64,000 bases of DNA from an uncultured Eubacteriales bacterium (GTDB taxonomy: Bacteria; Bacillota; Clostridia; Christensenellales; Aristaeellaceae). The position numbers and the translations under genes are program-made. The DNA lies in the NCBI GenBank assembly GCA_902774025.1, contig CACYGY010000009.1, positions 1 to 64,000 on the forward strand. The letters run 5' to 3'. The notes beneath the pieces are model-generated. The model worked only from the letters and a program-made list of their open reading frames with translations, did no database searches and was not told the DNA's origin. Of this stretch, positions 7,939-36,289 are shown in pieces. Within the stretch, counting starts at the first letter, position 1, and every line of letters starts with the position of its first letter.

Positions 7939-8240
7939 TCGATGCATTTCTCCGACAGACTGTCACTGTCCGACCTTATGTGCGGGAGGGATCAGGCGGG
8001 CCGATCTACGGTCCGGAGGAGCACCGGAAATGCCGCATCGAACCCTGCCTGACCCTCACCCGGCAGTCCGGCGTGAGCGGTACCATGGATGATGACCCCG
8101 CAAGGGCCACGATGTTCTGCACGGGGCGAGAAATCCCCCGCCGCTCCATCGTCATCCATGAGGGAGAGGAGTACACCGTGACACGCTGCGACATCCTCAG
8201 AACCTTTACGGAGGATCATCTGGAGGTGACCCTGTCGTAA
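7914..8240 (+). CDS. Minor capsid protein/head closure protein
   Basis: The 108-residue product fits the minor capsid 1 or head-closure type found after the adaptor in Firmicute phages. It is mostly beta, with FLRQTVTVRPYV at the N-terminus and FTEDHLEVTL at the end. The ATG at 7914 lies inside the previous gene, and a GTG slightly downstream (7929) is an alternative start. It is the second of four small head-completion genes in the usual order. Confidence 0.7.
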   Translation: MGGINVALIDAFLRQTVTVRPYVREGSGGPIYGPEEHRKCRIEPCLTLTRQSGVSGTMDDDPARATMFCTGREIPRRSIVIHEGEEYTVTRCDILRTFTEDHLEVTLS

Positions 8241-8596: not shown

Positions 8597-8600
8597 GTCG

Positions 8601-8984: not shown

Positions 8985-9002
8985 AAGAAAGAGGGGAAAG
9001 CT

Positions 9003-9731: not shown

Positions 9732-9738
9732 AGACCTG

Positions 9739-9775
9739 ACAGGGGATCGGATTTGTCCGGTCCCCTGTGCTTTTT
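9739..9775 (+). terminator. Terminator after the tail tube gene
   Basis: A 13-base-pair stem (ACAGGGGATCGGA with TCCGGTCCCCTGT, one G-U pair) with a TTTG loop is followed by GCTTTTT. It separates the tail tube gene from the chaperone genes and would lower downstream expression. Confidence 0.85.
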
Positions 9776-9793
9776 GTGAAAGGACAAGGACAA

Positions 9794-10165
9794 ATGAAGA
9801 AGTTTACACTTGATTTCGACCAGTTCTACTCTGAACAGGAAGAAGACGTTATTGAAGTCACCTGGATGGGCGTCAGGCTCACCGTGAAGAAGGCGGTTCC
9901 CGCGTCCCTCCCCATCATGATGGCCAGGTCCGAGCTGGCGGAGGGGGAGAACGCCACCGCCTACATCTACCGCGCCGCGGACGAGATGTTGGGCAAGGAA
10001 AACGTGGATGCCCTGTGCAGGAAGGGCGCCACCGCCAAGGGCCTTGCCACCCTCATCAGCCGACTGTTTGAGATGATCAACGGCTCAGACGATGAGGAGG
10101 AGGATATCCAGGAAGGCTCGGATGACGGCACCGTGGCCAAGGCACCGAAAGAGTCAAAAAAATAA
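9794..10165 (+). CDS. Tail assembly chaperone, short form (gpG-like)
   Basis: The 123-residue zero-frame product starts with MKKFTLDFDQFYSEQ behind AAAGGACAAGGACAA. It is acidic near the C-terminus (NGSDDEEEDIQEGSDDG) and ends in SKK just before a TAA stop. Position between the tube and tape measure genes identifies it as the first tail assembly chaperone, which keeps the tape measure protein soluble and loads tube subunits. The last codons form a slippery heptamer, so a fraction of ribosomes should continue in the -1 frame. Confidence 0.85.
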   Translation: MKKFTLDFDQFYSEQEEDVIEVTWMGVRLTVKKAVPASLPIMMARSELAEGENATAYIYRAADEMLGKENVDALCRKGATAKGLATLISRLFEMINGSDDEEEDIQEGSDDGTVAKAPKESKK

Positions 10166-10425
10166 ATCTGCTCCACATATGGAGCGCCGTGGAAGCAGAT
10201 TTTCAGAGGGATTACGGCATTGATCTGGTGACGGAACTGCCCAGACTGACATGGCGGAAATTCCTCGTCCTGTACCGGAACCTGAACCCATTCGGGGCGG
10301 TATCCAACCGGGTACAGGCGGAAATGGCCGAAGCGAAGCAGAAGGAAAGTGAGGAAAGCGCGGAGGAACAGGCGAACGCCTTCTTCTCCCAGATCCTTTC
10401 CGTGAATACGCCAATGAGAGGGTGA
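9794..10425 (+). CDS. Tail assembly chaperone, frameshifted long form (gpGT-like)
   Basis: This is the predicted -1 frameshift product. It reads the zero frame to 10162, then slips and continues as INLLHIWSAVEADFQRDYG to the stop at 10423-10425, about 210 residues in all. The added domain contains VTELPRLTWRKFLVLYRNL, which resembles the Gp15-type chaperone domain that contacts the tape measure protein. A separate GTG start at 10189 has no ribosome binding site, so frameshifting is the better explanation for its expression. The ratio of the two forms is normally critical for tail assembly. Confidence 0.8.
10156..10184 (+). promoter_or_regulatory. Programmed -1 ribosomal frameshift signal
   Basis: A run of seven A at 10156-10162 sits in the phase A AAA AAA relative to the chaperone frame, with the TAA stop immediately after it. 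Eight bases downstream, CTCCA (10171-10175) pairs with TGGAG (10180-10184) around CATA as a stimulatory hairpin; outer CTG/CAG pairing may extend it. Slippage gives a continuous -1 frame to 10425. This is the classic arrangement for siphophage tail chaperones. Confidence 0.85.
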
Positions 10426-10432
10426 AACACGC

Positions 10433-13400
10433 ATGGCACTGAAAGTCGGTGAACTCTTCGCGTCCTTTAATGTCGATACGAGCGGCATCGACAAGGCCAT
10501 GAAGCAAGCCAAATCCACCACAGAAAGCCAGATGCACGGCATCGGGACATCGGCGGATCAGGCGTTCAGCAACATCTCCCAGGGCGCGGAAAGGGCATCC
10601 AGATCCATGTCCTCCTCCATCAGCACGGCCTGCTCCAGCGCGAAACAGTCTCTCGAGGATCTGGGGAAATCCATGATGAAGACCGGGGCCATGCTCTCCC
10701 TGACGGTCACCACGCCCATTGTGGCGGCAGCCAAGTCCGTGGTGAGCACCGGCATGGACTTCCAGGCGGCCATGTCGCAGGTGTACGCCACCGGCGGCAA
10801 GGACCTGCAGAACAACGCTGCTGCCATGGATGCCCTGAAGAAGAAAGCCCTCGAGATGGGTGCCACCACCCAGTACACAGCCACCCAGGCGGCGGAGGGC
10901 CTCAACGTCCTGCTCATGGCGGGTTATGACGCCGTGGAAGGGTTTGATGAGGTTGCCTCCATGCTGGACACGGTGCTGAACATGGCGGCCGCCGGAGGCA
11001 TCGATATCGAGCAGAGCGCCAGCATCATCACCAACGTCATGGCTACCCTGGGAGACGCCGCGGGCGGACCCGAGCAGGTGGCCGACTCTCTGGCTGTCAT
11101 GGCCACCAAGGCCAAGGGCTCCGTCGCTGAGTTCGGCGAAGCGCTCTCCACCGTGGGCGGACAGCTGGGCGTGACGGGACAGAGCATGCAGGCAGGCCTT
11201 GCGGCACTGGGTGCCCTCGGAAACGCCGGATACAGCGGCGCGGAGGCCGGTACTCAGCTCAGGAACGTCCTCAAGAACATCTATCAGCCCACCACCAAGG
11301 CCCAGAAGGCCATGGACGAGTTTGGATACAGCGCCTATGACTCGCAGGGCAACGTCAAGCCCTTGGGCGAGGCGCTCAAGGAACTGCAGGGCATCTATGA
11401 TTCCTTCTCCACCGACGTGGAGCGGAACCAGTTCATGGACGCCATCTTCGACACCCGCACACTGGCTGCGGGCAAGAAGCTCATGGATTCCGCCGTGGCG
11501 GGCGAGTTCGACCAGCTCCTGGGATACATGAGCGAAGTGAACGGCGCTGCGGAGAACATGCGTCTCGTCCAGCAGGACAACCTGCGGGGCGATATCGAGA
11601 TCATGAAATCCGCCATCGACGGATTCAAACAGTCCCTGTTCGAGCTGAATCAGGGTCCCCTCCGGGACGTGGTGCAGAACATCACCCACCTCTTCGACAA
11701 GCTCAACGGCATGGATGACGATACCAAGATGGGCCTCACCCGCCTCCTTGGCCTCGCCGCATCCATGGGTCCAGCCCTCGTGATCGGCGGCAAGCTCGCC
11801 ACCACCCTGGCAGGGCTTCCCGCTCTGATCTGGGCACTCTCTTCTCCTCTGGGCTTTGCCAGCATCGGCATGATCGCCTTCGGGGCGGCCGTCATGGACA
11901 CGAACAACTCCATCGGGGAGACGTTCGAAAAAGCCTGTCATCTGGTGAGTGAGAAGTCCGCAGAACTGAAGAACTACCTGGTGGAAAACGGCCAGGCTAT
12001 CCGGGATCGGATGGGTGAAGCTCTGGGCTCCATGGCTTCCGGCGTTGAGGAGGCCATGACGGGAGTTTCCGACGCGGGTGCCTACCTCCTGACCTTCCTG
12101 ATGGATTCCATCTCCCAGAACATGGACGGCATCGTCGGTGTGGGCAAGGGCTTTGTGGAGGGCATCGGCAAGGGCCTGAAGGACAACATTCCTTCCCTTG
12201 TGGGATCCGCCCATCAGCTGGCAACGAACTTTATCATCGGCACCCTGAACATGATCCCCACCCTCGTCAAGACGGGCGGGGAACTGGCTCTGGCTGTCGT
12301 GGAAGGCCTGAAGGAAGTGGACTGGGGCGAGAGCGCCACCAAGCTTTCCGAGGCCTTCAAGGGTTCCATGTCGGAGATTGAGACCACCCTTTCCGGATTC
12401 GGAAGCAAACTGGCGGAGCTCATCAACCCGGAGGAAGGCTTTGAGTTCGACTTCTCCACCTTCGAATCGGTGGGACAGAACATCATTGACGGCATCATCT
12501 CCGGCATCAGGGGCGTGACGGACTTCTCCACAAAGGTCATTGACGCCGTCACGGAGAAGCTCAGCAACACCGACTGGCCGCAGCTCACCGAGAAGGCCAA
12601 GTCCATGGGCCAGAGCATCTTCCGGGGCGTCAAGCAGGGCATCACGTCCATCGGGGACGCAGGTGTCCAGATCGTGACGGCCATCGGCGACCTGATCACC
12701 AGTGAAGGTTTTGCGGATGCCTTCACCTCCGCCGGGGATATCGCCGGAGACATCATCAACGGGATCATCGACTCAATTGTGGACATTGCGGATGCCGGAA
12801 CCCGGATCATGGAAGCCATCGGAGGCTTCCTCACACCGGATAACATCGGCAACGCCTTTGACGCCATCGGAAGCGTCGCGGAGAGCATCGTCAGCGCCAT
12901 CTCCTCCGGGATCTCGGACAACAAGGACACCGTCGTGGACATCATGCGGCGGATCGGTGACGTGATCTTCGGCAGCGAGGGCGAATCCGGACTGCTGGAG
13001 AACGCCCTCAGCGGAGGCGCGAACCTGGCCACCCAGATCCTGTCCGCCATTACGGACGGGATTTCCGGGATCAGCACCTTTGCCGCCGACATCTTCGACG
13101 CCATTGCAAGCTCCTTCACCTCCGAGAACGCGGAGGGCATCGCGGGTGCCGCTGAGAATCTCCTGTCCAGTATCATCACCGGCATTACGGACGTACTGGA
13201 TGCCGCCGCCAACGGAGATGCCACGGATCACTTTGTCAGCTTCATGAATCAGCTGGGCACGGCCCTCATGGACGGCATCGCCTCCATCGACTGGTCCGGC
13301 CTGGGCGACAAGTTCGGCAATCTGGTGACCACCCTGGTACAGGGCCTGATCAAGGCCATCCCGGGCGTTATGGCCGCTGTGGAAAACGGCATGTCGGTAG

Positions 13401-16291
13401 GCATGAAGCTGGCCTCCGGGCTGATTGAAGGCATCCGGAGCGCCATAGACACGATCGGCACGGAAGGCATCGGCTCAAGCATCGGGCAGATGCTTCAGTC
13501 CGTTGTGGAGAGCATGGTACGCCTGGCACCTCAGGTGATTGACGTCGTGAAGGACGGCCTTTCCCTGGGTGCACAGCTGGCGGAATCCCTGTTCTCGGGC
13601 ATTACGAGCGCCATTCAGTCCATGGCCGACAGCGGTGTGGGGTCTTCCATCGGAACGCTCCTGAACACCCTGATCACCGGCCTTATCAGCACGCTTCCCA
13701 GCATACTGGACGCTGCCGACAGCGCTCTGAGTCTGGGCATGCAGCTGGCCAATTCCCTCATCGACGGGATCGGGGATGCCATCACGCAGATCAGCGCTCA
13801 GGATATCGGCGGCTCCATCGGGGACGTTCTCAACAAGCTCATCTCCGGGCTCATCGAAAAGCTGCCGGATGCCATGAACATGATCCAGGGAGGCCTTTCC
13901 CTGGGTACGAAGATGGTGAGTGCCCTCCTGGAAGGCATCGGATCCGCTCTGGGAAGCGCCACAGCTGACGGGAACACCCTCGGAACCAATATCGGAAAGC
14001 TGGCCACCGATCTGGTCAGAAACATCCTGGACGGGATCAAGAACATCCCCGAAAGCGATGCATACAAGTCTTTCGTCACAAACCTCGGCGAAGGCATCCG
14101 CGGAGCTCTCGGAGAGCTTGGCAAGCTGGCCGGGGAAATCGTGTCCTATATCTTCTCTCCTGAAGGCATACAGGCCATCTGGAACGCCGGACTGAGCCTG
14201 GGAAAGATGCTGATCGACGGCATCAAGTCAGCCGTGGAGGGCATCGGAAGCTTCTTCAGCAACCTGGTGAACACCATGCTGATCAACTACGGTGTGATCA
14301 GCTCCGAACAGGCCAAGGAAGCCTCCAGCAACGCCGCCAATGTCCTGAAAGCCAGTCTGGAATCCGGGCTGCAGGAAGGCACCGCCGGATACGACATGGC
14401 CGCCATCATGAGCGCCCTCCTGAAGAGCAACCCGAACGTGGACATTGATGAATCCACCTTCGACGCGCCCATGCAGGCGTATGTGGAAGCCCTTCAGGGA
14501 GCCATCAACAAGTACCTGAATGACGGCCCGAACAATGGTGGGGACCTGAGAGATACGATTCGGAAAGTGCTCACGGATTCCTGGAATGACACTCAGTGGG
14601 ACTTCGACTTCTCCCTTGGCATGGGCGAAGAAGCGTCAGAGGCCTTCTGGGCGAGCCTGGAAGAGGCCCTTGGAAAGCCCCCGGCCGAGCGCCAGCAGGC
14701 GGTCTATGACCTCCTTTCCCAGCAGATGAACGACCTCATGGGCAATGCCATGGATGCGGCTCAGGATGCTGCGGAGAATGCCGGGGAAACCATTGATCTC
14801 AGCGCCGCTGTGACGGGCAAGTTTGCCGGTCTCAGCGGGGAAACCCAGAGCCAGATTCAGGCGGCGTGCGAGGAACTGGGCATCAAGGCATCCGAGCTCA
14901 TGAGCCAGGAGATCAGCTCCGGAATCATGGATGCCATCAAGAACGCCAGCGGGCAGGAAGAAATCAAAACCCTCATCTCCGACCTGTTTAACGGCTCCGA
15001 GACGGAAGCCCGTCAGGAAGGCGAGGGCATCGGACAGGCCGCCACGGACGGGGCCAAGGATAAGATTGCCAGTCTCTCGGACGCACCTACCGAAGCCATC
15101 AATGGCATGCAGACAACCCTGGACAACGCCCAGGGCACCATCGGACAGGCCGGAGAGAACCTGGCGAACAGCGCGGTTCAGAAGGTCATCGAGAAGATGA
15201 ACGCCGAGGCCGGTGGGAGGATCGCCACAGAGTACGTCAACGGCATCAAGAACACACTGAATGACGGGTCCGCCGCTCAGGCTGCATCCGCCATGGCGAA
15301 CTCCGCCGTGGCTGCGGCAAAGGGCGTGATGACCTACACCGCGGGCCTGACGCTCGGACAGCAGTTCGGCAAGGGCATTGCGGACGGCATCCGCTCCATG
15401 GCGGATACCATAAGCCAGGCGGCCAGGAGCGCCACACAGGGCGCCCTGAACACCGTCAAGTCCACACAGGACTCCGGTTCCCCGTCACGGATCACCACCG
15501 GTTTCGGTGAGGATTTCGGGCAGGGATACGCCAACGGCATCCTGGGCATGATGGGCACTATCACAAAGGCCTCCAGATCCGTCACCGACTCTGCCATCAA
15601 TACCCTCCGTGAAACCCAGAAGTCCCACAGCCCCTCTGCCGTCACCACCAATGAGGGCATCAACTGGGGCCAGGGGTACACCAACGGCATTGCCGCCACG
15701 GAAAAGAGCGTGGCAAAGGCCGCCCTGAAGATCACCAAGGTCGCCAACAACACGCTGAAGGAGAACTCCGGCGGCCAGAACGCCTATCTGAACAGGAACT
15801 ATGCGGAGATCAACACGAGCACCGGCACCACCGGAGGCGGAAGCATCTGGAGCGGTCTGGAAAAGGCCGTCACAGGCGCCGCCAACGACTCCAAACAGAC
15901 GATCTCCAAATTCACCGAAGAAACGGAAAAGCAGGTCCAGGAAGCCACCAAATACATCCGGAAAGAGACCACAAAGAGCACGTCCATCCCGGTATCGGGA
16001 GGCAGCGGAGGCGGAGGCGGCGGGGGCGGAAGCGCGTCCGATTACATGTCCTCCATGGGCCCCGCGGCATCGGTCATGTCCTCCGGCTCTTCCATGGCAG
16101 CCGCATCCTCCGGGATTTCCCAGGGGGCTGTGGACGCGGCATCCTATGAGCAGTACGCCCGGATTGTGGCGGCGGCCATTAACGGATGTCATGTGGAACT
16201 GGACGGGCAGGAGGTGGGTGTCCTGGTAGCCTCCACCGTATCCGAGACCATCGCGGAATCCGCCAGCGCAAGGAGGAATGGTACGATATGA
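10433..16291 (+). CDS. Phage tail tape measure protein (TP901 type)
   Basis: This 1952-residue protein sets tail length and is threaded through the tube. The TP901 core lies at about residues 100-300, including TQYTATQAAEGLNVLLMAG and SVAEFGEALSTVGGQLGVTG. A hydrophobic stretch at about 430-490 (ALVIGGKLATTLAGLPALIW) could insert into the host membrane during DNA entry. Residues ~500-1250 are repetitive helical units rich in II(D/S)GI and GSSIG motifs. A Gly/Ser-rich segment at about 1855-1870 precedes the C-terminus. No peptidase or lysozyme domain was recognised. At about 0.15 nm per residue, the family rule suggests a tail near 290 nm. Confidence 0.95.
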   Translation: MALKVGELFASFNVDTSGIDKAMKQAKSTTESQMHGIGTSADQAFSNISQGAERASRSMSSSISTACSSAKQSLEDLGKSMMKTGAMLSLTVTTPIVAAAKSVVSTGMDFQAAMSQVYATGGKDLQNNAAAMDALKKKALEMGATTQYTATQAAEGLNVLLMAGYDAVEGFDEVASMLDTVLNMAAAGGIDIEQSASIITNVMATLGDAAGGPEQVADSLAVMATKAKGSVAEFGEALSTVGGQLGVTGQSMQAGLAALGALGNAGYSGAEAGTQLRNVLKNIYQPTTKAQKAMDEFGYSAYDSQGNVKPLGEALKELQGIYDSFSTDVERNQFMDAIFDTRTLAAGKKLMDSAVAGEFDQLLGYMSEVNGAAENMRLVQQDNLRGDIEIMKSAIDGFKQSLFELNQGPLRDVVQNITHLFDKLNGMDDDTKMGLTRLLGLAASMGPALVIGGKLATTLAGLPALIWALSSPLGFASIGMIAFGAAVMDTNNSIGETFEKACHLVSEKSAELKNYLVENGQAIRDRMGEALGSMASGVEEAMTGVSDAGAYLLTFLMDSISQNMDGIVGVGKGFVEGIGKGLKDNIPSLVGSAHQLATNFIIGTLNMIPTLVKTGGELALAVVEGLKEVDWGESATKLSEAFKGSMSEIETTLSGFGSKLAELINPEEGFEFDFSTFESVGQNIIDGIISGIRGVTDFSTKVIDAVTEKLSNTDWPQLTEKAKSMGQSIFRGVKQGITSIGDAGVQIVTAIGDLITSEGFADAFTSAGDIAGDIINGIIDSIVDIADAGTRIMEAIGGFLTPDNIGNAFDAIGSVAESIVSAISSGISDNKDTVVDIMRRIGDVIFGSEGESGLLENALSGGANLATQILSAITDGISGISTFAADIFDAIASSFTSENAEGIAGAAENLLSSIITGITDVLDAAANGDATDHFVSFMNQLGTALMDGIASIDWSGLGDKFGNLVTTLVQGLIKAIPGVMAAVENGMSVGMKLASGLIEGIRSAIDTIGTEGIGSSIGQMLQSVVESMVRLAPQVIDVVKDGLSLGAQLAESLFSGITSAIQSMADSGVGSSIGTLLNTLITGLISTLPSILDAADSALSLGMQLANSLIDGIGDAITQISAQDIGGSIGDVLNKLISGLIEKLPDAMNMIQGGLSLGTKMVSALLEGIGSALGSATADGNTLGTNIGKLATDLVRNILDGIKNIPESDAYKSFVTNLGEGIRGALGELGKLAGEIVSYIFSPEGIQAIWNAGLSLGKMLIDGIKSAVEGIGSFFSNLVNTMLINYGVISSEQAKEASSNAANVLKASLESGLQEGTAGYDMAAIMSALLKSNPNVDIDESTFDAPMQAYVEALQGAINKYLNDGPNNGGDLRDTIRKVLTDSWNDTQWDFDFSLGMGEEASEAFWASLEEALGKPPAERQQAVYDLLSQQMNDLMGNAMDAAQDAAENAGETIDLSAAVTGKFAGLSGETQSQIQAACEELGIKASELMSQEISSGIMDAIKNASGQEEIKTLISDLFNGSETEARQEGEGIGQAATDGAKDKIASLSDAPTEAINGMQTTLDNAQGTIGQAGENLANSAVQKVIEKMNAEAGGRIATEYVNGIKNTLNDGSAAQAASAMANSAVAAAKGVMTYTAGLTLGQQFGKGIADGIRSMADTISQAARSATQGALNTVKSTQDSGSPSRITTGFGEDFGQGYANGILGMMGTITKASRSVTDSAINTLRETQKSHSPSAVTTNEGINWGQGYTNGIAATEKSVAKAALKITKVANNTLKENSGGQNAYLNRNYAEINTSTGTTGGGSIWSGLEKAVTGAANDSKQTISKFTEETEKQVQEATKYIRKETTKSTSIPVSGGSGGGGGGGGSASDYMSSMGPAASVMSSGSSMAAASSGISQGAVDAASYEQYARIVAAAINGCHVELDGQEVGVLVASTVSETIAESASARRNGTI

Positions 16292-22497: not shown

Positions 22498-22732
22498 CCC
22501 CGCGATGGGACCAATCTATCCAATGCCGCCACCTGAACCGGGCGGACGAGCCAGCGTGGTGGGTGTCCCAGGAGGGGCTGTCGCCAAGCGGCTGAAAACG
22601 GCCAGGGCTATCACAATTACCGGTGCCATGAATGGGTCTGAAAAGTTTGACGGAAGCAAGGACATTGAGATCAATGTGACAGCCAACGTCATCACCCATG
22701 AGGACATCGATTCCATGTTTATGGGAGAGTGA
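22490..22732 (+). CDS. Small fibre-module protein with C-terminal DIDxMF motif
   Basis: The 80-residue product starts at a GTG six bases after AGGTGG, overlapping the upstream stop. The N-terminus is Pro/Gly-rich (MGPIYPMPPPEPGGRASVV). The middle (ARAITITGAMNGSEKFDGSK) resembles the short repeats of phage fibre tips. The C-terminus VITHEDIDSMF recurs in the next genes. An alternative GTG at 22475 would add five residues. Confidence 0.55.
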   Translation: MFSPAMGPIYPMPPPEPGGRASVVGVPGGAVAKRLKTARAITITGAMNGSEKFDGSKDIEINVTANVITHEDIDSMFMGE

Positions 22733-22737
22733 GAACC

Positions 22738-23355
22738 ATGGCGACAAACAACAACTACCTCGTAGACAAGGAAGGGCTTGAGTATTTCCTATCCAAGCTC
22801 CGCATCCATGATCTTGCGGGGAAGGTGGACAAGGTCGAAGGGAAAGGCCTGTCCGAGAACGACTACACGGATGCCGACAAGCTCAAGCTTGCGGACATCG
22901 ATCCCCAGGCCAACTATTACGTCCATCCACAGTACACCCCCAGGGCGATCGGCTTATACCGGATCCAGGTGGACGCCAGCGGCCACGTTGCGGCGGTATC
23001 ACCCGTCACAAAAGCGGACATTGTGGCGCTTGGCATTCCCGGGCAGGACACGACATACCAGAGAGCCACACAGGCCTCTGACGGTCTTATGTCCTCGCTG
23101 GATAAGACCAAACTGGACGGTTTCGACGCGGCGGACAAGTACGCCAAGAAGAGCGAAATCGGAACGGTGATGCGGTACAAGGGCAGTGTTGCCACTTTCG
23201 CAGACCTTCCCCAGGACGCCGAGGTGGGCGACTTTTATGACGTCCGTGAGGACGGATCCAACTACGCCTGGGATGGACAGGCGTGGGACCCGGTGGGCTC
23301 TTCGCTCACCATCGAGGTTGTCACGACTCAGGACATCGATGAGATGTTTGCCTGA
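22738..23355 (+). CDS. Tail fibre module protein (paralogue 1)
   Basis: The 205-residue product starts MATNNNYLVDKEGLEYFLSK. It contains the module KVDKVEGKGLSENDYTDADK, which is shared with the next two genes, then a repeat block ending GIPGQDTTY. A beta segment with MRYKGSVATFADLPQDAEVG follows, then the C-terminal TTQDIDEMFA. This looks like a fibre or adhesin module. The gene overlaps nothing and lies five bases after its neighbour. The exact partner is unknown. Confidence 0.65.
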   Translation: MATNNNYLVDKEGLEYFLSKLRIHDLAGKVDKVEGKGLSENDYTDADKLKLADIDPQANYYVHPQYTPRAIGLYRIQVDASGHVAAVSPVTKADIVALGIPGQDTTYQRATQASDGLMSSLDKTKLDGFDAADKYAKKSEIGTVMRYKGSVATFADLPQDAEVGDFYDVREDGSNYAWDGQAWDPVGSSLTIEVVTTQDIDEMFA

Positions 23356-23415
23356 GAGTGAATAGAACATGGATGGCTGTATAGCCTTCCGTACAACGAT
23401 TTGGAGGTAAAAACT

Positions 23416-24249
23416 ATGGCAAATTCCGGAACCAAGTTCGTCAGCAAAGAGAGACTTCAGTACTTCAAGAGCAAGCTCGACGTCCTGTTTGCCGCCAAGG
23501 TGGACAAGGTAGAAGGCAAGGGCCTCTCCGCCAACGACTACACCGATGCCGAGAAGACCAAGCTGGCTGGCATCGAGGCCAATGCGAATAACTACACCCA
23601 TCCGGCTCACACCGCGGCTGCCTCCGGCCTGTACAAGGTCACCGTTGACGCTCTGGGCCATGTGACCGATGCCACCGCGGTGGCCAAGTCCGACATCACC
23701 GCCCTGGGCATTCCCGCGGAAGACACCAACACCACGTACACCTTCTCCGGTGCGCTGAGCTCCGGTTCTTACGTGATCACCATCACGCCCAACTCCGGCT
23801 CTGCTCAGACTGTGACCGTTCCCGCCATGGTGGGTGCCGGTGCTGAGGCTGCCGGTGCGGCCGGTCTTGTGCCCGCTCCCGCGGCTGGCGACAACCTCAA
23901 GTTCCTGCGTGCGGACGGCACCTGGGTGGTTCCCACCGACACCACCTACGAGGATGCCACTCAGTCCGTGCACGGCCTGATGTCCACCGCCGACAAGATC
24001 AAGCTGGACGGCTTCAGCGCCGCTTCCAACTACGCGCTCAAGTCCGACTTGACCAACGTCTACAAGTACAAGGGCTCCGTGGCGACCTACGCCGACCTGC
24101 CCTCCTCCGGACTCACCGCCGGTGACGTGTACGACGTCCAGGCCGACGGCATGAACTATGCCTGGAACGGCACTGCCTGGGATCAGCTGGGCGGCAACTT
24201 CACCATCGACGAAATCACCACGGCTGAAATCGATGCCATGTTCGCCTAA
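23416..24249 (+). CDS. Tail fibre module protein (paralogue 2)
   Basis: The 277-residue product starts MANSGTKFVSKERLQYFKSK behind TTGGAGGTAAAAACT. It repeats the architecture of its upstream paralogue: KVDKVEGKGLSANDYTDAEK, YKVTVDALGHVTDATAV and YKYKGSVATYADLP. It also carries an extra AAGAAGLVPAPAAGD-type linker before the distal half, and ends TTAEIDAMFA. Codon bias is strongly toward C-ending codons, unlike its neighbours, which suggests high expression. A hairpin terminator follows. Confidence 0.65.
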   Translation: MANSGTKFVSKERLQYFKSKLDVLFAAKVDKVEGKGLSANDYTDAEKTKLAGIEANANNYTHPAHTAAASGLYKVTVDALGHVTDATAVAKSDITALGIPAEDTNTTYTFSGALSSGSYVITITPNSGSAQTVTVPAMVGAGAEAAGAAGLVPAPAAGDNLKFLRADGTWVVPTDTTYEDATQSVHGLMSTADKIKLDGFSAASNYALKSDLTNVYKYKGSVATYADLPSSGLTAGDVYDVQADGMNYAWNGTAWDQLGGNFTIDEITTAEIDAMFA

Positions 24250-24268
24250 TCCTGCCTGACCGACAAAA

Positions 24269-24297
24269 AGGGCGCGGGAATGTTCCTCCCGCGCCCT
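24269..24297 (+). terminator. Hairpin between fibre module genes
   Basis: AGGGCGCGGGA pairs perfectly with TCCCGCGCCCT around a short loop. The tail after it is GTATTATTT, not a clean T-run, so termination may be partial. It lies between fibre paralogues 2 and 3. Confidence 0.6.
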
Positions 24298-24323
24298 GTA
24301 TTATTTGAAAAGGGGTGACTTGC

Positions 24324-24782
24324 GTGTCGTGGGTATCTGCATCCAGACTGCAGTATTTTCTTTCCAAGATCTATGGGATTTTCGACACCAAGGTAGACAA
24401 AGTCACAGGTAAGGACCTGTCTACGAATGACTATACGGATGCCGAGAAAACGAAACTTTCGGGTATCGAATCCGGTGCCAACAATTACTCGCATCCTGCA
24501 CACACGGCTCAGTCTTCGGGCCTGTATAAGGTTACGGTGGACGCGCTCGGGCATGTGTCTGATGCCGCCGCTGTCCAGAAAAGCGACATCACGGCTCTCG
24601 GGATCCCGGGGCAGGACACCACGTATTCCGACATGACGGGAGCCACATCGAGTTCCGCCGGAGCCCATGGACTGGTTCCCGCACCCGCCTCCGGAGCAAC
24701 AGATTATCTGCTCAAGGGAGACGGCACCTGGGGCGATTTCTCTGAGATGACTGCCGCACAGGTTGCGCAGATCTGTGTTTGA
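24324..24782 (+). CDS. Tail fibre module protein (paralogue 3, short)
   Basis: The 152-residue product starts at a GTG (SWVSASRLQYFLSKIYGIFD) after GGGGTGACTTGC. It has the shared module VDKVTGKDLSTNDYTDAEK, then YKVTVDALGHVSDAAAV, GIPGQDTTYSD and a GLVPAPASGATDYLLKGDG linker. It ends EMTAAQVAQICV. It lacks the distal beta domain present in the two upstream paralogues. Function is inferred from shared modules. Confidence 0.6.
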   Translation: MSWVSASRLQYFLSKIYGIFDTKVDKVTGKDLSTNDYTDAEKTKLSGIESGANNYSHPAHTAQSSGLYKVTVDALGHVSDAAAVQKSDITALGIPGQDTTYSDMTGATSSSAGAHGLVPAPASGATDYLLKGDGTWGDFSEMTAAQVAQICV

Positions 24783-25026: not shown

Positions 25027-26148
25027 ATGCCCAACTATAACCCTTTGGGACCGGTAGGCCTCGCGAAGCTCTGGGAGCTGATCAAGGGGCGGGACGATAA
25101 CATCAAGCTGTGGTTCGCCGAATCCAGCACCGCGGGGAGCACCGCCTCCAAGACGGCAACCCTGGCGAATTACACGCTTGTCAGCGACCGCATTGTCTGC
25201 GTCAAATTTGCCAATGACAACACGGCGGCCAGCCCGACCCTGAACATCAACAGCACGGGCGACATCCCGCTCTATTATCTCGGATCGGCTGTGGCTGCTG
25301 ACGTCATCAAGGCGAATGTGATGTACGTCATGCGCTATAACGGCACACAGTACGATCTGATCGGCATTGCTCCGCCCTCCGTCATGGACGGTGCTACTTC
25401 CCAGGCGGCCGGTGCGGCTGGACTCGTTCCTGCTCCTGCTGCGGGAGACGATGTAAAATACCTCAAGGGCGATGCCACCTGGGGTACGCCCACGGACACG
25501 CAGAACACCGCCGGTGCCACGGACACCTCCAACCAGATCTACCTGATCGGTGCCGCCTCCCAGGGACAGGCTGAGCAGACCTATTCCCAGGACACGGCCT
25601 ATATCGGATCTGACGGGGAAGTGTACTCCGGAAGCAAGAAGGTGGCTCACCAGGAGGATCTGGACAAGACGAACGGTGCCATGGCGATCGTGGCCACCGG
25701 GAACACCGCACCCAAGGCAATCTCCGCCGGGCAGTTCGTCCTCTGGGGCGGAAACCTGTACACCGCCAACTCTGCGATTGCCTCCGGAGCCACCCTTTCC
25801 ACCAGCAATCTGACCGCTGTTCCCAACGGCGGTTTGAACAAACTGAACGATGGCCTTACTTCGTTAAACAGTAATTTATCGACACTTTCCGGTATAGTTG
25901 GCGGTAAAGTTGACATGATAGACTTAGGGAATCCTGCCACCATCGCGGAAATTTGGGACGCAATAAACGTATATGACCGTCCTGTTATATGCAAATGGAA
26001 TAAATCAGGGAAATTTTGGGGGCTGTTTTATAAATACACTGGTGGGCAGTTTGGTATGGGTATTTATCAGGTGTACTACAGCACAAACTTGACAATCGTT
26101 TCCGTTTCGGGTGGTACAATAACGCAGAAAAATATTGTAGGAACTTGA
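25027..26148 (+). CDS. Phase-variable tail fibre protein (currently expressed version)
   Basis: The 373-residue protein starts MPNYNPLGPVGLAKLWELIK behind AAGGAGGAGAGTAT. Residues 1-277 are constant: an N-terminal attachment domain, the AAGAAGLVPAPAAGD linker also found in paralogue 2, and a domain with GQFVLWGGNLYTANSAIASG. From residue 278 (TSLNSNL) the DNA crosses an inverted repeat and becomes AT-rich. The last ~96 residues, rich in Tyr, Trp and Ile, form one of two alternative C-terminal domains. The other lies on the opposite strand at 26351-26635. The C-terminal domain is the likely receptor-binding tip. Confidence 0.8.
   Translation: MPNYNPLGPVGLAKLWELIKGRDDNIKLWFAESSTAGSTASKTATLANYTLVSDRIVCVKFANDNTAASPTLNINSTGDIPLYYLGSAVAADVIKANVMYVMRYNGTQYDLIGIAPPSVMDGATSQAAGAAGLVPAPAAGDDVKYLKGDATWGTPTDTQNTAGATDTSNQIYLIGAASQGQAEQTYSQDTAYIGSDGEVYSGSKKVAHQEDLDKTNGAMAIVATGNTAPKAISAGQFVLWGGNLYTANSAIASGATLSTSNLTAVPNGGLNKLNDGLTSLNSNLSTLSGIVGGKVDMIDLGNPATIAEIWDAINVYDRPVICKWNKSGKFWGLFYKYTGGQFGMGIYQVYYSTNLTIVSVSGGTITQKNIVGT
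25857..25878 (+). repeat. Left inverted repeat of the fibre switch
   Basis: The 22-base sequence contains TTCGTTAAACAGTAATTTA and codes for the TSLNSNL element of the fibre gene. It matches the reverse complement of 26609-26630 at 21 of 22 positions, the single difference being T versus C at 25864. Confidence 0.92.
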
Positions 26149-26159
26149 TTGCGCGTAAT

Positions 26160-26315
26160 TTAACGAGACGATTCATATTTAATGTACAAGTCATTTAGTT
26201 GTGCGAGGAAGATTCCAATCATCGAAAGCATTGTGCTCGTTTCCTCGTCATTTGTTGTTTTACGATATTCGCCTATCCATTTTATCATTTCATCAATGCT
26301 TATCTGACGATTCAT
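26160..26315 (-). CDS. 51-residue ORF inside the invertible cassette
   Basis: On the minus strand an ATG at 26315 opens a 51-codon frame (MNRQISIDEMIKWIGEYRKT to IKYESSR). AAGGTGG lies about ten bases upstream of it. It follows the stop of the alternative fibre C-terminus by 35 bases and has the same orientation, so it would be transcribed only when the cassette is inverted. The sequence is helical and charged. No family is recognised; a small fibre assembly factor is one possibility. Confidence 0.6.
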   Translation of the reverse strand: MNRQISIDEMIKWIGEYRKTTNDEETSTMLSMIGIFLAQLNDLYIKYESSR

Positions 26316-26350
26316 AATTCTTCAACCACCTTTTTGGCTATGTTGTGCCT

Positions 26351-26635
26351 TTAGCCCTTGTAAAATCCTCTTACTTTACAGCGTCCGTTTTCTGAATCGC
26401 TATCAAGCAACACAAGTAATATAGTTTGCCCATCAATCATAGGGATGGCGAATGTTGTACCCCAGTAGACATTTACGACATCAATTATGTCAGTGCGTCC
26501 AAAAACTGTCTGGAATGGTATTTGTGCATATTTCCATCCGCCTCTGGTAGTCCAAGTCAGCGTGTTGTAATAAATGAAATCAGAGTCGACATATTTATAG
26601 TAGTTTGTTAAATTACTGTTTAGCGAAGTAGTCAC
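26351..26635 (-). CDS. Silent alternative C-terminal domain of the tail fibre
   Basis: This minus-strand frame reads TSLNSNLTNYYKYVDSDFIY and continues 92 residues from that threonine to the stop. The first seven residues are identical to the fibre at its inverted repeat, and the reading phase is the same. No ribosome binding site precedes the GTG at 26635, as expected for a silent cassette that depends on fusion. The sequence (WTTRGGWKYAQIPFQTVFG, then AIPMIDGQTILLVLL) is beta-rich and unrelated to the expressed C-terminus. It is the likely second receptor-binding tip. Confidence 0.85.
   Translation of the reverse strand: MTTSLNSNLTNYYKYVDSDFIYYNTLTWTTRGGWKYAQIPFQTVFGRTDIIDVVNVYWGTTFAIPMIDGQTILLVLLDSDSENGRCKVRGFYKG
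26609..26630 (-). repeat. Right inverted repeat of the fibre switch
   Basis: This is the partner of 25857-25878; its reverse complement contains TTCGCTAAACAGTAATTTA. Sequences on either side diverge at once, which places the crossover within these 22 bases. Confidence 0.92.
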
Positions 26636-26667
26636 CCATGTATAACGCTATGTATTCATAAGTAAAT

Positions 26668-26691
26668 GCCAGGGACATTATTGTCCCCGGC
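26668..26691. terminator. Bidirectional hairpin terminator between recombinase and fibre switch
   Basis: GCCAGGGACA pairs with TGTCCCCGGC (one wobble) around TTAT. AAAATCTTTT follows on the plus strand and ATTT on the minus strand. It would end recombinase transcription before the switch and fibre transcription before the recombinase. Confidence 0.65.
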
Positions 26692-26699
26692 AAAATCTT

Positions 26700-27716
26700 T
26701 TATGCGGTATACATGGTGTGGCTGCGTTGAACGTCTGAATCATCCGTCTCTGCATAGATCAGGGTCGTGGCGATGTGCTCATGGCCCAGGAACTTCTGTA
26801 CCTGATTCACAGGCATCCCGTTGTGCAGGGCGACCGTCGCTACCGTGTGGCGGAAGACGTGAGGCGTGACCTTTACGGTGTATTGGTGCCCTGATTTCCG
26901 GACGATCCTGTTCACGGAGTCCTGGAGCGCCTTTGGCGACAGGGGCTTATCCATCAGCTTCTTTGACACCCTTTCCCGGGTGAAAATGTACGGGGAATCA
27001 TCGGTCCGGCTGTTGATATACGCCTTGAGAGATACCTCGCAAACCGGATTGATGTAGGTGGTCCTCGTCTTGTTTCCCTTCCCGTGACGGATGATCAGCG
27101 TCTTCTTCTCCCAGTTGATGTCCGACAGCTTCGCATTACAGGCCTCTGACACACGCGCCCCGGTCGAGTAGAGGAAGTCCACCAGGGCCTTGTCACGGAC
27201 ACATGTGCAGCTGCTCCGGAGGACCTCCAGCTCAACTCTCTGCATGGCATGCACAGGAGAGGGCTCCGCCTTGATGGCCGCCACCCTCTTGATCGGATTG
27301 GCTCCGATGATGCCTTCCTGTGAGCACCACTCGCAGAAGCTGCTGAGGACCCGGCGGGTGTTGCCGATCGTCACGGTTTTATGATGCTTTTCAGCCTTGC
27401 AGTAAGCGAGGTACTCACGGACATCCTGCGGGCTGATTGCGGTGACGGGCTTGCTCACATGGCTCAGAAACCCTCTGAGGACGCACCGATACATATCCAG
27501 TGTGTTCGGTGACTTTTCCTCAACGCCCTTGGCGGCCAGGAAGTCTTCCATGATCTTCATGGCCTCCTCCGCCTTCTGCCCGGATTCTCCATCCTTCAGA
27601 TCGATGTCGTACTCCCGCGCAACCAGATCAACGGCGTCCATGATCCGCTTCGTGTCCTCTGGCATGATGGACCGGATGACCCCTGTCAGCTGGGCCTTGA
27701 AGCTGTCATAACTCAT
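26700..27716 (-). CDS. Tyrosine recombinase, probable DNA invertase of the fibre switch
   Basis: The 338-residue product starts MSYDSFKAQLTGVIRSIMPE behind AGGAGGAGCAT; longer upstream in-frame codons lack a ribosome binding site. The N-terminal SAM-like core-binding domain spans about 45-145. The catalytic set is complete: Arg188 in TGARVSEA, Lys213 in HGKGN, His286 and Arg289 in PHVFRH, His312 in LGHEH and Tyr321 in LIYAE. It resembles XerC/D and shufflon-type enzymes more than long phage integrases with an arm-binding domain. Its place inside the late region, convergent with the fibre gene, argues for inversion of 25857-26630. A role as prophage integrase cannot be excluded. Confidence 0.85.
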   Translation of the reverse strand: MSYDSFKAQLTGVIRSIMPEDTKRIMDAVDLVAREYDIDLKDGESGQKAEEAMKIMEDFLAAKGVEEKSPNTLDMYRCVLRGFLSHVSKPVTAISPQDVREYLAYCKAEKHHKTVTIGNTRRVLSSFCEWCSQEGIIGANPIKRVAAIKAEPSPVHAMQRVELEVLRSSCTCVRDKALVDFLYSTGARVSEACNAKLSDINWEKKTLIIRHGKGNKTRTTYINPVCEVSLKAYINSRTDDSPYIFTRERVSKKLMDKPLSPKALQDSVNRIVRKSGHQYTVKVTPHVFRHTVATVALHNGMPVNQVQKFLGHEHIATTLIYAETDDSDVQRSHTMYTA

Positions 27717-31761: not shown

Positions 31762-32412
31762 TTACGTTTCTACTCTGTATGAGGCGCCCAATCCAGAAAG
31801 GCGCTTCAGACACACACTCAGGCGCTTGTGGTTCAGCTCGGTCCCCACAAACTTTTTCCCCGCGGAGTATGCTGCGCATGGCACCAGCCCGCGTCCTGTG
31901 CAGAGATCACCGGCAATCTCGTACTCCTCCTCCTTGCATACGGCAGAGATGATGTCTTCCTCGTCCATTCCGTCATACTTCCTGCCGCGATAGGCCTTCC
32001 GGGCTCCCCGGACGATATAGCAGAGCTTCTGAGGATCATGATAGTAGGTGGAATTGAAGAACGTGACGTACTTGAACAGCTTCTTCATCTGGAAGAGCCA
32101 GACGTCCAGATTCTCCTTCCCGATCTCCAGATAGCACACCCGGGGATCAATCTCCCAGATGCAGTCAAAGAGGCGATCCCCGAAGCGGAGGAAGTCGTAT
32201 CCGTAATCCGGAGCAATCTCCGCCTTGGTGTAGAAGGACCGGAGGTTTCCCTGATTCCAGGGGGAATCCGTGAAGATCATGTCTGCCTTTTTCATAAAGG
32301 CCGGAAGAGGATCCATGATGGAACGGGTCATCAGCATGGACCCGTCATCGAAGACGGCGATCCCGTTTTCGATGGGATAATCCTTATAGGCGTCCTCGTA
32401 ATTATATTCCAT
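31762..32412 (-). CDS. DNA methyltransferase (N6-adenine or N4-cytosine type)
   Basis: The 216-residue product carries a catalytic motif IV, TDSPWNQ, at about residues 48-54. A SAM-binding motif I-like DLCTGRGLVPCAAYSAGKKF comes after it, at about 169-188. This order (catalytic before SAM motif) is that of the beta-type amino-methyltransferases. No target recognition domain of usual size is present, so the enzyme is minimal and may use a partner. No restriction endonuclease was recognised nearby. It overlaps the ParB-like gene by 11 bases. Methylation to protect phage DNA or to regulate genes is inferred. Confidence 0.8.
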   Translation of the reverse strand: MEYNYEDAYKDYPIENGIAVFDDGSMLMTRSIMDPLPAFMKKADMIFTDSPWNQGNLRSFYTKAEIAPDYGYDFLRFGDRLFDCIWEIDPRVCYLEIGKENLDVWLFQMKKLFKYVTFFNSTYYHDPQKLCYIVRGARKAYRGRKYDGMDEEDIISAVCKEEEYEIAGDLCTGRGLVPCAAYSAGKKFVGTELNHKRLSVCLKRLSGLGASYRVET

Positions 32413-32938
32413 CCGGCACCTCCTGCATTCCCCAGGAACGGGAATAGGTCTGATTTTTGAACAGGGCTGCGATGCCTGTCACCTGCTTCAGCCGGAAGAC
32501 CTCCTCCGGATCCATGCCCAGGTGCTTGGCGATATCCTCATCGCTGGCACCCTGCTCCACCAGAGCCTGGACGAGATCACCCATCAGCTCAACCTGGTGG
32601 ACGCCGCGGGCCCGGTTGAACTGCACCGTAGCGGCCATCCTCTGCCTCATATCGTGATGCAGGACGATGATGGGAAGCTCCTTCGCCTCCAGGAAGTCTT
32701 TGAAGATCTGGTAGCGGTGGAATCCGTCGATGATGACGTACTTGTCCAGCACATCATCGTAGATGGTTACGACCGCGAAGCAGAACCCATTGTCCCGGAT
32801 GGACGTCAGGAGAAGCTCCATATTTTGGTCGGATACGTTATTGGGATTGTAGTTGTTTGCCTGGACCTTTTCGATGGGCACGATGATGGGTTCCATGCAG
32901 GGGAGCTTGATCTCCCCGTATTTCGTGTTGATGGTCAT
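32402..32938 (-). CDS. ParB/sulfiredoxin-like protein (IbrB-like)
   Basis: The 178-residue product has ParB-type motifs: PIEKVQANNYNPNNVSDQN at about 21-39 and VIIDGFHRYQIFKDF at about 68-82. A helical region with a helix-turn-helix character (SDEDIAKHLGMDPEEVFRLK) follows. Together with the adjacent PAPS-reductase-like gene it matches the IbrB/IbrA pair described in E. coli as regulators. Current knowledge of the fold suggests CTP or nucleotide binding, but activity here is unknown. Confidence 0.78.
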   Translation of the reverse strand: MTINTKYGEIKLPCMEPIIVPIEKVQANNYNPNNVSDQNMELLLTSIRDNGFCFAVVTIYDDVLDKYVIIDGFHRYQIFKDFLEAKELPIIVLHHDMRQRMAATVQFNRARGVHQVELMGDLVQALVEQGASDEDIAKHLGMDPEEVFRLKQVTGIAALFKNQTYSRSWGMQEVPDGI

Positions 32939-32948
32939 ATTCTACACC

Positions 32949-34133
32949 TCACAGCAAGCTCTTCCACTTGGCAATGGTCTTCTCCCGGGGATCCTCGGCG
33001 TTGTCCACGGGGAGATTGTTCTCATAATCGTTCAGGATCAGCTGGCGGCACTCCTGCCTGGCCACGTAGTTGTTATCCAGATGCCTGGCGAAACGCTTCT
33101 CGAAGATCCACTTCTTCGACTCGTCCGGATATGTTTCCAGGAGGAAATCACGGTATTCCCTCCATGATTTGAAGTTCTTCGGAAGAGACTGGCACTTCAG
33201 AAGCTTCCGGTCCTTCCCGTAGAGATTGCCAACTTGAATGCCCTTGATCCGCTTGCACAGCTTGTCGTATGTCTTCGGCTCGAATTCAGGCAGCTCCACC
33301 AATGACTTGAATGCCTTCTCATGGATCAGGGATGACACCCGGATTTCCTGAATGCTCATGCCCTTCTTGTACTGGTAATCGTAGATCCGGCTATAGCGGA
33401 TGTTGTTGTCGTAGATGTACTTCCAGATATCGGAGAAGTTCCAATCATACAGCGGATAGAAGGAAGCTGAACCCTCTCCGCCGCACTTCGTGCACCAATA
33501 CACGTCTTTGTATCCCGGATTCTTCGATACGGCCCGGAACCGGTTCATGGATTCCGTCGCACGGAGGCCCACAAGGAAGGCCGTGTGCTCCCGGCTTCTC
33601 TGGAAGTTCTCAATGGCATCGTAGAATCCGAAGCCCTTGTTCCGGTCCCGGATCGTCTCCGTAGCCGGGTCCCAGGGCTTGTGCTGGATGGAGTATGGGA
33701 CCTTCGGCCGCATCCAGATCTTATGCTTGCCTTCCTCCCAGCAGATGAGCTGGCCTTCCTCGAAAGACGTCGCGTTCGTCAGGCGGAATGAAAGCTGCAG
33801 CCAGAGGCGGATCGTGTTCTCCGGGTAGAGGTTCATAAGCCAGTCGATCTGCTCGATGGTGGACTGGTACACGACTTCCTCATCCAGGAAAAAGATGCCG
33901 ATCTTCCGGTTTCTCCGCCTGGCCTCCTGCAGCGTCATCCATGCCAGGACGGTGCTGTCCTTCCCGCCGGAGACGGAGACGATGATATTTTCGAACTCGT
34001 CGAAGATGTAGCTGATTCGCTCCTGGGCGGCCTCCACCACATTCTTACCCGGGTTGTATACCTGTGAGAGCAAAGATTTCACCTGCCTTCTGATTCCATT
34101 CTTCGAGCTGATTCCAGTAGTAGGTATCGACAC
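32949..34133 (-). CDS. PAPS-reductase-family protein (IbrA-like, PP-loop)
   Basis: The 394-residue product has the PP-loop SVSGGKDSTVLAW near residues 53-65, which binds ATP or an adenylated substrate. WCTKCGGEG lies at about residue 215, in a possible metal or Fe-S region. The family (DUF3440/IbrA) is paired with ParB-like IbrB, exactly as here, with a 10-base gap. The start is uncertain: the GTG at 34133 lies inside the upstream gene, and later GTG codons (34082) are possible because homology begins near residue 30. Proposed roles range from transcription control to sulfur-dependent nucleic acid modification. Confidence 0.8.
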   Translation of the reverse strand: MSIPTTGISSKNGIRRQVKSLLSQVYNPGKNVVEAAQERISYIFDEFENIIVSVSGGKDSTVLAWMTLQEARRRNRKIGIFFLDEEVVYQSTIEQIDWLMNLYPENTIRLWLQLSFRLTNATSFEEGQLICWEEGKHKIWMRPKVPYSIQHKPWDPATETIRDRNKGFGFYDAIENFQRSREHTAFLVGLRATESMNRFRAVSKNPGYKDVYWCTKCGGEGSASFYPLYDWNFSDIWKYIYDNNIRYSRIYDYQYKKGMSIQEIRVSSLIHEKAFKSLVELPEFEPKTYDKLCKRIKGIQVGNLYGKDRKLLKCQSLPKNFKSWREYRDFLLETYPDESKKWIFEKRFARHLDNNYVARQECRQLILNDYENNLPVDNAEDPREKTIAKWKSLL

Positions 34134-34911
34134 CCAGATCGGTCCCGAGGAATGTCAGCTCCTTCTGCTGAGTCGTTTTCAGGAAGTCGTTCAGCTCCAG
34201 ACGCCGGTGCGGAATGTCGATGGCGATCCGGTCCTCCGCTTCCTTTCCTTCCTTATAAGTGATGATGTCCAGACCGGATTTGTTCAGGCGTTTGTTCCTG
34301 GCCACATACCGGACACCCGGTTCCAGGGGCTTGTACTTCCCGCACCAGACATGGAGATTCCTGGGGACGGTATCCGGGTCCTTGCTTCCGAGACTGTCGA
34401 AGAGATCATCCCGGTGCTTTTCGTACTTCTCCCGGATCTCCGGCGACACTTCGATGAGCGTCCTCCGGATCACCGGCCTTCTGTCGCAGCCGGAGATATC
34501 CAGGCCGTTCAGCATGGCCGGATCCAGACCCCGACCCTTGAATTTGTTCGGGTGATCCATGTCCATGAGGATCATGAAGTCTGAGTGATCGTCGATAACG
34601 GGAAACCACTCAAAGACGATCCGGTGCGGTGTCTGATTGAGATAGTGATGCATGCAGTTATAGGTCAGATCGGATCGGTTCTTACTCCGCATGAATTCGT
34701 TGACTACCATCAGAGTCGTGTCCCGGACACGCTCCAGGAGGGGATAGAAGACCCTGTACATGATGGCATCCGGCCAGTTAAACTCGTCGTACTCCATCCC
34801 CAGGCGGAACGGATCATGGGAAAAGATCACAACATCCTTGATATCATGCTCCAGGATGTAATTCCTGATTACCTCCAGTTTCTGGTCCTTTGTCAGCCCC
34901 AGGCGTATCAC
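34045..34911 (-). CDS. Unknown conserved protein next to the IbrA-like gene
   Basis: The 288-residue product starts at a GTG (IRLGLTKDQKLEVIRNYILE). It is an alpha/beta protein with several acidic and histidine-rich stretches (SHDPFRLGMEYDEFNWPD, DHSDFMILMDMDHPNKFKG). These might bind metal or nucleotide, but no family is recognised. It overlaps the helicase by 68 bases and the PAPS-reductase-like gene by 89 bases. Such tight packing suggests obligate co-expression with both. The function is unknown. Confidence 0.6.
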   Translation of the reverse strand: MIRLGLTKDQKLEVIRNYILEHDIKDVVIFSHDPFRLGMEYDEFNWPDAIMYRVFYPLLERVRDTTLMVVNEFMRSKNRSDLTYNCMHHYLNQTPHRIVFEWFPVIDDHSDFMILMDMDHPNKFKGRGLDPAMLNGLDISGCDRRPVIRRTLIEVSPEIREKYEKHRDDLFDSLGSKDPDTVPRNLHVWCGKYKPLEPGVRYVARNKRLNKSGLDIITYKEGKEAEDRIAIDIPHRRLELNDFLKTTQQKELTFLGTDLGVDTYYWNQLEEWNQKAGEIFALTGIQPG

Positions 34912-36289
34912 TCACATCCACGTCCCTTCCACTGAGCCACTGGGCCCGGTTTTTTGATTTAAGCATTCCCTTGAAGGATTCCACCATGTTCTCTTTCCGG
35001 GAAAGACATCTCAGGATACGGCTGTCAATGGACTCGTATCCGGCGATGTCCACGATCCTGACGGTTTCTGCCTGGCCGATCCGGTGGATCCTGTCCTCCG
35101 ACTGAGCTCTGGTGGCCAGGTCCCAGTCATTGTTGTAGTACACCGCCACATGGCAGAATTGGAGATTTAACCCGTATCCGGCACAGGTCTTGTTGGCGAC
35201 GAAGAACCGGGCATTATCCATGAACAGCTTCAGGCTCCGGTTCCTCTCCTTCGGGGTGAGCGTGCCACAGAAGATGCACACGGCATCGTCTCCGTACTTC
35301 TCCCGGAGGATGTAGGAGATGTCATCGATCTCGTGCTGGAATTTGCACCAGATGACCACCTTCTCGTCCTCGAACTGTCCGAGCACCCGCTTGAGTGCCT
35401 GGATCCTCGGATTGAGGTGCGGATCATCATAAAACGGCACATGCATGATCGGCTCCGATGCGTCCGAGACGATCCTCCGCCCGCTGGCGATCTCCTGCAG
35501 AGCAGTGAACGTCCTGTAGATGGCTGCGGAGTCATCCTCGCTGACGAGTGTCGAGAGGAAGGCACTCATCTCCTCCTCATAATGGACGAACTGCGCATAA
35601 TCCATGTGGAAATGCTCAACGTCATAGGTCTTCTTCGGCAGCTGGACTGCCTCCGACTTTTTGACCATGTACGTATACGGACTGATCTTGTCCGTCAGGT
35701 ATCTGACATTCAGCACCCGCCGGACGCGGTGCTTATACTTGTCATCGTACTCCAGATGATTGGCTGCGAAGCTGTAATAGCTCTGATAGCCCAGGATACG
35801 CCAGTCCAGGATATACCACTGGGCGAACAGATCTGCTTCGTTCCGGCTGATGGGTGTGCCGTTAAGGATGATCCGGTAGGGGCATGCCTCGGCGATGGAC
35901 GTGATCTTCTGGGTGCGGATTGCCCTGGAGTTCTTGACGAGGTTGCTTTCATCCACCACCAGCATGGCCCGGCCGCCGGACACGTACTTGTACAGAATTC
36001 CATACAGCTTCTTCGAGCCTGACAGACTCTCGATGCCGTAGATCTGGATCACGTCCTCCGCTCCGGTGCTGTGCTTGTTGATGTCGGTGCGGATGGATTC
36101 GATGATGGAACAGGGACAGAGCCACAGCACTCTGTCGATCTTCCCGACGTCCAGGCGCCGCTTGATCATCTCAAGGGCGGCCCTGGTCTTCCCTGTTCCC
36201 ATCTCCATGTAGAGCGCTCCCACACGGAGCTTGATGAGCTTCTCCACGGCCTTTTCCTGCCATGGGAACATCGCTGTCTTTAACTCCAT
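34844..36289 (-). CDS. SNF2-type DEAD/DEAH-box helicase
   Basis: The 481-residue protein has helicase motif I MEMGTGKTRAA at about 28-38, motif II VVDESN near 113, motif III-like RIILNGTPISR, and a C-terminal RecA domain with motif VI SEDRIHRIGQAETV near 396-409. This is the SWI2/SNF2 group, common in phage early regions. It should translocate on double-stranded DNA. A role in phage replication, recombination or against host DNA-binding proteins is possible. The ATG follows TTGGAGGATAA. It is the second gene of the operon. Confidence 0.88.
   Translation of the reverse strand: MELKTAMFPWQEKAVEKLIKLRVGALYMEMGTGKTRAALEMIKRRLDVGKIDRVLWLCPCSIIESIRTDINKHSTGAEDVIQIYGIESLSGSKKLYGILYKYVSGGRAMLVVDESNLVKNSRAIRTQKITSIAEACPYRIILNGTPISRNEADLFAQWYILDWRILGYQSYYSFAANHLEYDDKYKHRVRRVLNVRYLTDKISPYTYMVKKSEAVQLPKKTYDVEHFHMDYAQFVHYEEEMSAFLSTLVSEDDSAAIYRTFTALQEIASGRRIVSDASEPIMHVPFYDDPHLNPRIQALKRVLGQFEDEKVVIWCKFQHEIDDISYILREKYGDDAVCIFCGTLTPKERNRSLKLFMDNARFFVANKTCAGYGLNLQFCHVAVYYNNDWDLATRAQSEDRIHRIGQAETVRIVDIAGYESIDSRILRCLSRKENMVESFKGMLKSKNRAQWLSGRDVDVSDTPGADKGPETGGNQELHPGA

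Follow-up and report, generated by a model that had tools for sequence, protein, structure and literature searches.

A tail-fibre gene in a prophage of an uncultured member of the Clostridia reaches its end between two inverted repeats, next to a gene for a tyrosine recombinase. The question raised by this locus is whether the end of the fibre can be exchanged by inversion of the DNA between the repeats. The left half of the window (the whole 64,000-nucleotide stretch of DNA analysed here) is a siphophage-type prophage with terminase, SPP1-like portal, head, tape-measure, tail and fibre genes; the contig starts within this prophage, and the fibre gene lies downstream of the tape-measure and tail genes (Table 1). 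Three successive tail genes further upstream (22729-24782) have common repeated modules that are about 62-76% identical, which suggests, from their sequences, duplicated fibre or adaptor genes. The right part of the prophage (32402-36289) contains a ParB-like gene, a PAPS-reductase-like gene and a gene for an SNF2-type helicase.

Table 1. Features of the fibre locus, in window coordinates.
Feature	Position	Strand	Remarks
Tail-fibre gene, 373 aa	25027-26148	+	ORF; constant part to residue ~277, then expressed tip
Conserved stalk module (..AIASGATLSTSNLTAV..GGLN..)	25672-25863	+	Directly 5′ of putative crossover site
Putative left crossover site	25857-25878	+	Core CGTTAAACAGTAA at 25862-25874
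Active tip cassette, GC 41.5%	25879-26148	+	Expressed fibre end
Small ORF between tips, about 51 codons	26160-26315	-	Read from sequence
Silent tip cassette, GC 39.5%	26351-26608	-	In fibre phase once segment inverted
Putative right crossover site	26609-26630	-	Core CGCTAAACAGTAA at 26613-26625
Tyrosine recombinase, 338 aa, presumed invertase	26700-27716	-	Pfam PF00589, E 5.8e-35

Repeats, fibre tips and the adjacent recombinase

The two 22-base arms are, as an earlier note made from the letters of this DNA had read them, inverted relative to each other and complementary at 21 of 22 positions; 730 bases separate them. Their inverted-repeat score of 19 was equalled by no shuffled control: 500 dinucleotide shuffles of 25027-27716 reached 15 at most, and 1000 shuffled controls of 25701-26700 reached 14. 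Genome-wide (3.95 Mb), the 13-base core CGYTAWACAGYAA is confined to the two arms and its reversed-pattern control has zero matches, and the 14-base core TAAACAGTAATTTA, with one mismatch tolerated, occurs at two sites only in the assembly. The note had also remarked that the segment is richer in AT than its surroundings, and its GC content is indeed 38.6%, against 60.2% and 55.8% in the flanks. The best-formed copies of the site read CGTTAAA-CAGTAA-TTTAACG, with perfect 7-base arms and a 6-base spacer. Core sites of tyrosine recombinases usually consist of arms around a short spacer, and the symmetry of the sequence would place the spacer at CAGTAA.

In the fibre frame, both arms encode TSLNSNL, followed by 89 residues in the active orientation and by 85 in the silent one; counted from TSLNSNL, the two tips are 96 and 92 residues long and are unrelated to each other. 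The open frame 5′ of the active arm (281 codons) is in phase with both tips, and the minus-strand ORF that ends at 26351 reads ..TTSLNSNLTNYYKY.. in translation. The claims that both copies encode this heptapeptide in equal phase, and that a 96-residue end could be swapped for a 92-residue one with neither stop nor frameshift, were thus confirmed by translation, both frames being open. Inversion would also place the small ORF between the tips co-directional with, and behind, the newly active tip. Single-sequence structure models of both tips were uninformative (mean pLDDT 51.9 and 44.8), that of the active tip consisting mostly of beta strands at low confidence.

The gene beside the segment encodes a tyrosine recombinase, as had been noted, although its scores fall below the cut-offs for XerC and XerD. 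Its assignment to XerC was rejected at an NCBIfam score of 155.9 against an equivalog cut-off of 335, and that to XerD at 142.2 against 329.6; a Gin/Cin-type serine invertase was likewise rejected, since PF00589 denotes a tyrosine recombinase. The Pfam domains of the protein are a SAM-like core-binding domain and the catalytic domain only, with the arm-binding domain absent, and all six residues of the catalytic set (R188, K213, H286, R289, H312 and Y321) are invariant in two alignments of relatives. By homology, translation starts at the ATG at 27716 and not at 27872. The best-scoring matches in cultured or deposited phage records reach about 38% identity or lower.

These features suggest a scheme in which the segment 25857-26630 would be an invertible cassette for the fibre tip, with two states. 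The recombinase, presumably the enzyme that acts on this site, would bind the two inverted copies, pair them head to head and exchange strands in the asymmetric spacer CAGTAA. An asymmetric spacer in an inverted pair of sites leads to inversion, and because the sites face each other the outcome would be inversion and not deletion. Because the site coincides with the LNS(N/K) codons of the stalk just before the tip, the frame would be kept and a complete fibre made in either orientation. The tips probably bind receptors, and the progeny of a lysogen would then presumably bear different receptor-binding tips.

The site layout in other phages

Relatives of the recombinase were found by alignment-based scans; close-relative scans with a single recombinase or fibre query gave no matches, and a stalk query matched L066 alone among viral contigs and nothing among cultured phages. 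The closest recombinase relatives, in L066 (54% identity) and L067 (52%), are adjoined by inverted sites that are in frame and have the core found in the window, L066 having one site pair and L067 four sites around the enzyme in a multi-cassette form. Several tip cassettes are found in the relatives L067 and L029, and one alternative tip in the window. A matching stalk module precedes the site in L066, G453/L153 and L334, and over the 64 residues immediately before the site the stalks of L066 and of the window share 69% identity. The tips compared across phages are mutually dissimilar, except for one cassette common to L242 and L244. tRNA genes, suspected next to the segment in both L066 and L242, were not found there by ARAGORN.

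The identical 22-mer bounds a two-headed fibre end, with both tips in frame, in L040, an AT-rich phage that is otherwise different, and a recombinase fragment of 31% identity lies next to that segment. More in-phase site pairs occur in L254, L316, L354, L369 and L334, the silent frame being short in L334 and both upstream frames short in L316. In whole-contig scans the motif was nearly confined to inward pairs and the reversed-pattern control gave 0 matches; since the scanned contigs had been pre-selected for carrying the site, its exclusivity is informative and its presence is not. Most 17-mer site matches in viral contigs were single LNSNL coding coincidences with no recombinase, and were excluded from the count. 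The recombinase is accompanied by a single site in L153, L240 and L018, and many clade members have no such site at all; thus, not all of these loci are working switches of this kind. Site pairs with no detected recombinase occur in the fragments L052, L354 and L369.

Several loci depart from this layout in other ways. L079 contains a perfect 19-base inverted pair (5865-5883 and 6794-6812) by a related recombinase, in frame and reading TQLNGK both ways, which may represent another site specificity (LNGK) inside the same clade; repeats near related recombinases in L078 and L080 were out of frame and were set aside. The 90-kb phage contig of L316 (G627:C1) has inward pairs at 14929-15551 and 44899-45643, 30 kb apart, with one detected recombinase of the family found in the window, so that a single enzyme may act at both fibre loci. 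Full-length homologues in L085/L258 (the L085 recombinase at 7001-8008) and L070/L237 are interrupted by stop codons under table 11, and may belong to phages with a reassigned stop codon. The contigs of L151 (G590:C47) and L152 (G432:C46), from two further genomes, end in or just past a homologous stalk, which would fit assemblies that break at a variable tip.

Exchange of tips and the competing readings

L242 and L244, which come from separate metagenomes, are 94.6-96.6% identical on either side of the segment. A tip cassette common to both, with 114 of 114 residues shared, forms the fused fibre end in L242 but lies silent, inverted and by the recombinase in L244. GCGTTAAACAGCAA stands at all four junctions; the outer flanks are fixed and the inner sequences swap sides, an arrangement that is what inversion at the site would predict. 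The phages do not have their second tip in common, so that the partner tip must have been replaced too and the difference is not a pure flip. In two further pairs, L052/L055 (98% identical) and L018/L090 (up to 99% identical), the tips are unrelated and the change falls exactly at the LNS codons, which, as judged by comparison of the sequences, shows modular tip exchange at LNS.

Such exchanges might mean that the site serves mainly in the capture of tips, with recombination between phages at LNS replacing them and inversion being secondary. This reading draws support from the near-identical phages whose unrelated tips meet their fibres exactly at the site, from the replaced tip of L242/L244 and from the cassettes in the window, which are AT-rich relative to their own phage. 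However, capture alone needs no inward, in-phase pair of sites and no silent tip, and this combination recurs; capture as the main role is therefore regarded as unlikely, though not negligible. It is also conceivable, but improbable, that the segment was once inverted and is now a locked relic, with the switch dead in the window prophage and one tip in use. The single site kept by certain relatives and the single orientation shown by the assembly would fit such a history, as would the mismatch between the arms; yet this mismatch is a T/C difference that also distinguishes one site of L040 from the other, each tip has an open frame in phase with the fibre, and the recombinase ORF and its catalytic residues are intact.

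A recombinase that is the sole Phage_integrase-family gene of the contig might instead be the lysogeny integrase, the repeats being served by another factor or by nothing. The contig starts inside the phage, so that the phage's own integrase may merely be missing, and a related Terrisporobacter phage has both a fibre-side recombinase and a separate integrase of 527 aa. With the recombinase also adjoining the fibre gene in the window and accompanying fibre sites in relatives, an integrase role seems very unlikely. Hardly credible is the reading of the minus-strand ORF as an independent small gene and of the repeat as a coding coincidence: a possible GTG start lies at 26635, but the ORF starts with the repeat itself, with no obvious ribosome-binding site, and the layout recurs in other phages with different tips.

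Two-state inversion of the fibre tip by the adjacent recombinase can thus be put forward with high confidence as the best explanation of the locus. The unique paired sites, the frame, the recombinase, the relatives and the L242/L244 pair together point to a site-specific fibre-tip inversion system of the tyrosine-recombinase type. The earlier note had proposed inversion of the tip by the neighbouring recombinase, and this proposal gains support from the sites in other phages and from L242/L244; for the window prophage we infer it, and switching presumably continues there.

Relation to hsdS invertases and other known systems

Bacterial relatives of the recombinase, from the same genus and order, are 32-38% identical to it, and those with readable neighbours lie mostly within type I restriction loci. 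hsdS loci were found in L019, L021, L028, L030 and L036, and in several such loci 2 to 4 inverted copies of TAAAYGATAATTTA are arranged around the recombinase and encode xNDNL, in the same codon phase as in the window. The window site matches this hsdS core at 12 of 14 positions, a level reached by 639 of 200,000 shuffled 22-mers. In L036 (G341:C20), hsdS and the recombinase appear to be tandemly duplicated at about 6743-12393, with two identical recombinase copies. In a tree of 119 rows (quick method, single support value, midpoint-rooted), the window is placed in a group of 46 rows from phages (support 95) that includes 0 hsd loci, and the clade with almost all hsd loci is separate from this group. 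No Hsd match was found near the window recombinase, whose neighbours are fibre and tail-type genes; the window was therefore rejected as an hsdS invertase system, there being no hsdS or hsdM at the locus and the recombinase standing outside the hsd clade.

Identity and tree together link the fibre and hsdS enzymes by common ancestry, and common ancestry of their sites is possible; the likeness of the sites might also have arisen by convergence of AT-rich palindromes. The chances appear about even that the window is part of a lineage of phage fibre-tip invertases that is widespread and undescribed and that shares both ancestry and crossover-site design with the hsdS invertases. If so, one enzyme family would diversify the receptor specificity of phages and the restriction specificity of bacteria, tying phage receptor switching to phase-variable restriction, and the coding phase of the DNA site would be kept in both, as LNS-N/K in fibres and as xNDNL in HsdS. 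Two inward-facing copies of CGYTAWACAGYAA within LNS codons, next to a recombinase of a specific clade, would provide a recognisable signature by which to find tip switching among the phages of gut-type Clostridia, few of which are cultured, and pairs of alternative tips would make receptors directly comparable. No description of this recombinase lineage or of its crossover site was found in the open-licence literature.

Two classical systems resemble the window in part. The G- and C-segments of phages Mu and P1, inverted by Gin and Cin, are two-headed invertible fibre ends with alternative C-termini in frame. However, Gin and Cin are serine recombinases acting on gix and cix sites, whereas the window has a tyrosine recombinase and unrelated sites. 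In the R64 shufflon, Rci, a tyrosine recombinase, swaps the C-termini of an adhesin; its target is a plasmid pilus gene with several segments, in contrast to the single segment in a phage fibre gene seen here.

Among hsdS systems, the pneumococcal PsrA acts on short repeats to invert halves of hsdS, both in vivo and in vitro (PMC4948785, PMC7096588). The inversions by PsrA/CreX are similar to that proposed for the window in that a tyrosine recombinase lies by its target, short inverted repeats lie within coding sequence and the C-terminal half of a specificity protein is swapped in frame; the target is hsdS there and a fibre here, and the likeness to PsrA is drawn by description.

The earlier note had drawn its parallels from systems with serine invertases or Rci only, a list that was incomplete in that it overlooked the tyrosine-type Rin (PMC6109161, PMC8778435). 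The Rin shufflon of receptor-binding proteins, which uses a tyrosine recombinase, was described in Bifidobacterium prophages in 2018 (PMC6109161), and a Rin-like locus is known from clade 1 prophages of Eggerthella lenta (PMC8778435); the bifidophage system is the nearest published analogue of the window. Both have a phage-encoded tyrosine recombinase (XerD-like in Rin) with no arm-binding domain, located by a receptor-binding protein (a presumed one in the window), and both combine a constant N-terminus with exchangeable C-termini and with short repeats as crossover sites, presumptive ones in the window. By contrast, the rix site of Rin systems is TTCCCTAACCC or ttccgtat and the window site is CGYTAWACAGYAA, and Rin systems contain several tandem variable (Rv) genes, whereas the window has one two-headed segment. 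The hosts of Rin systems are actinobacterial and that of the window belongs to the Clostridia, the comparison with Rin being one by description.
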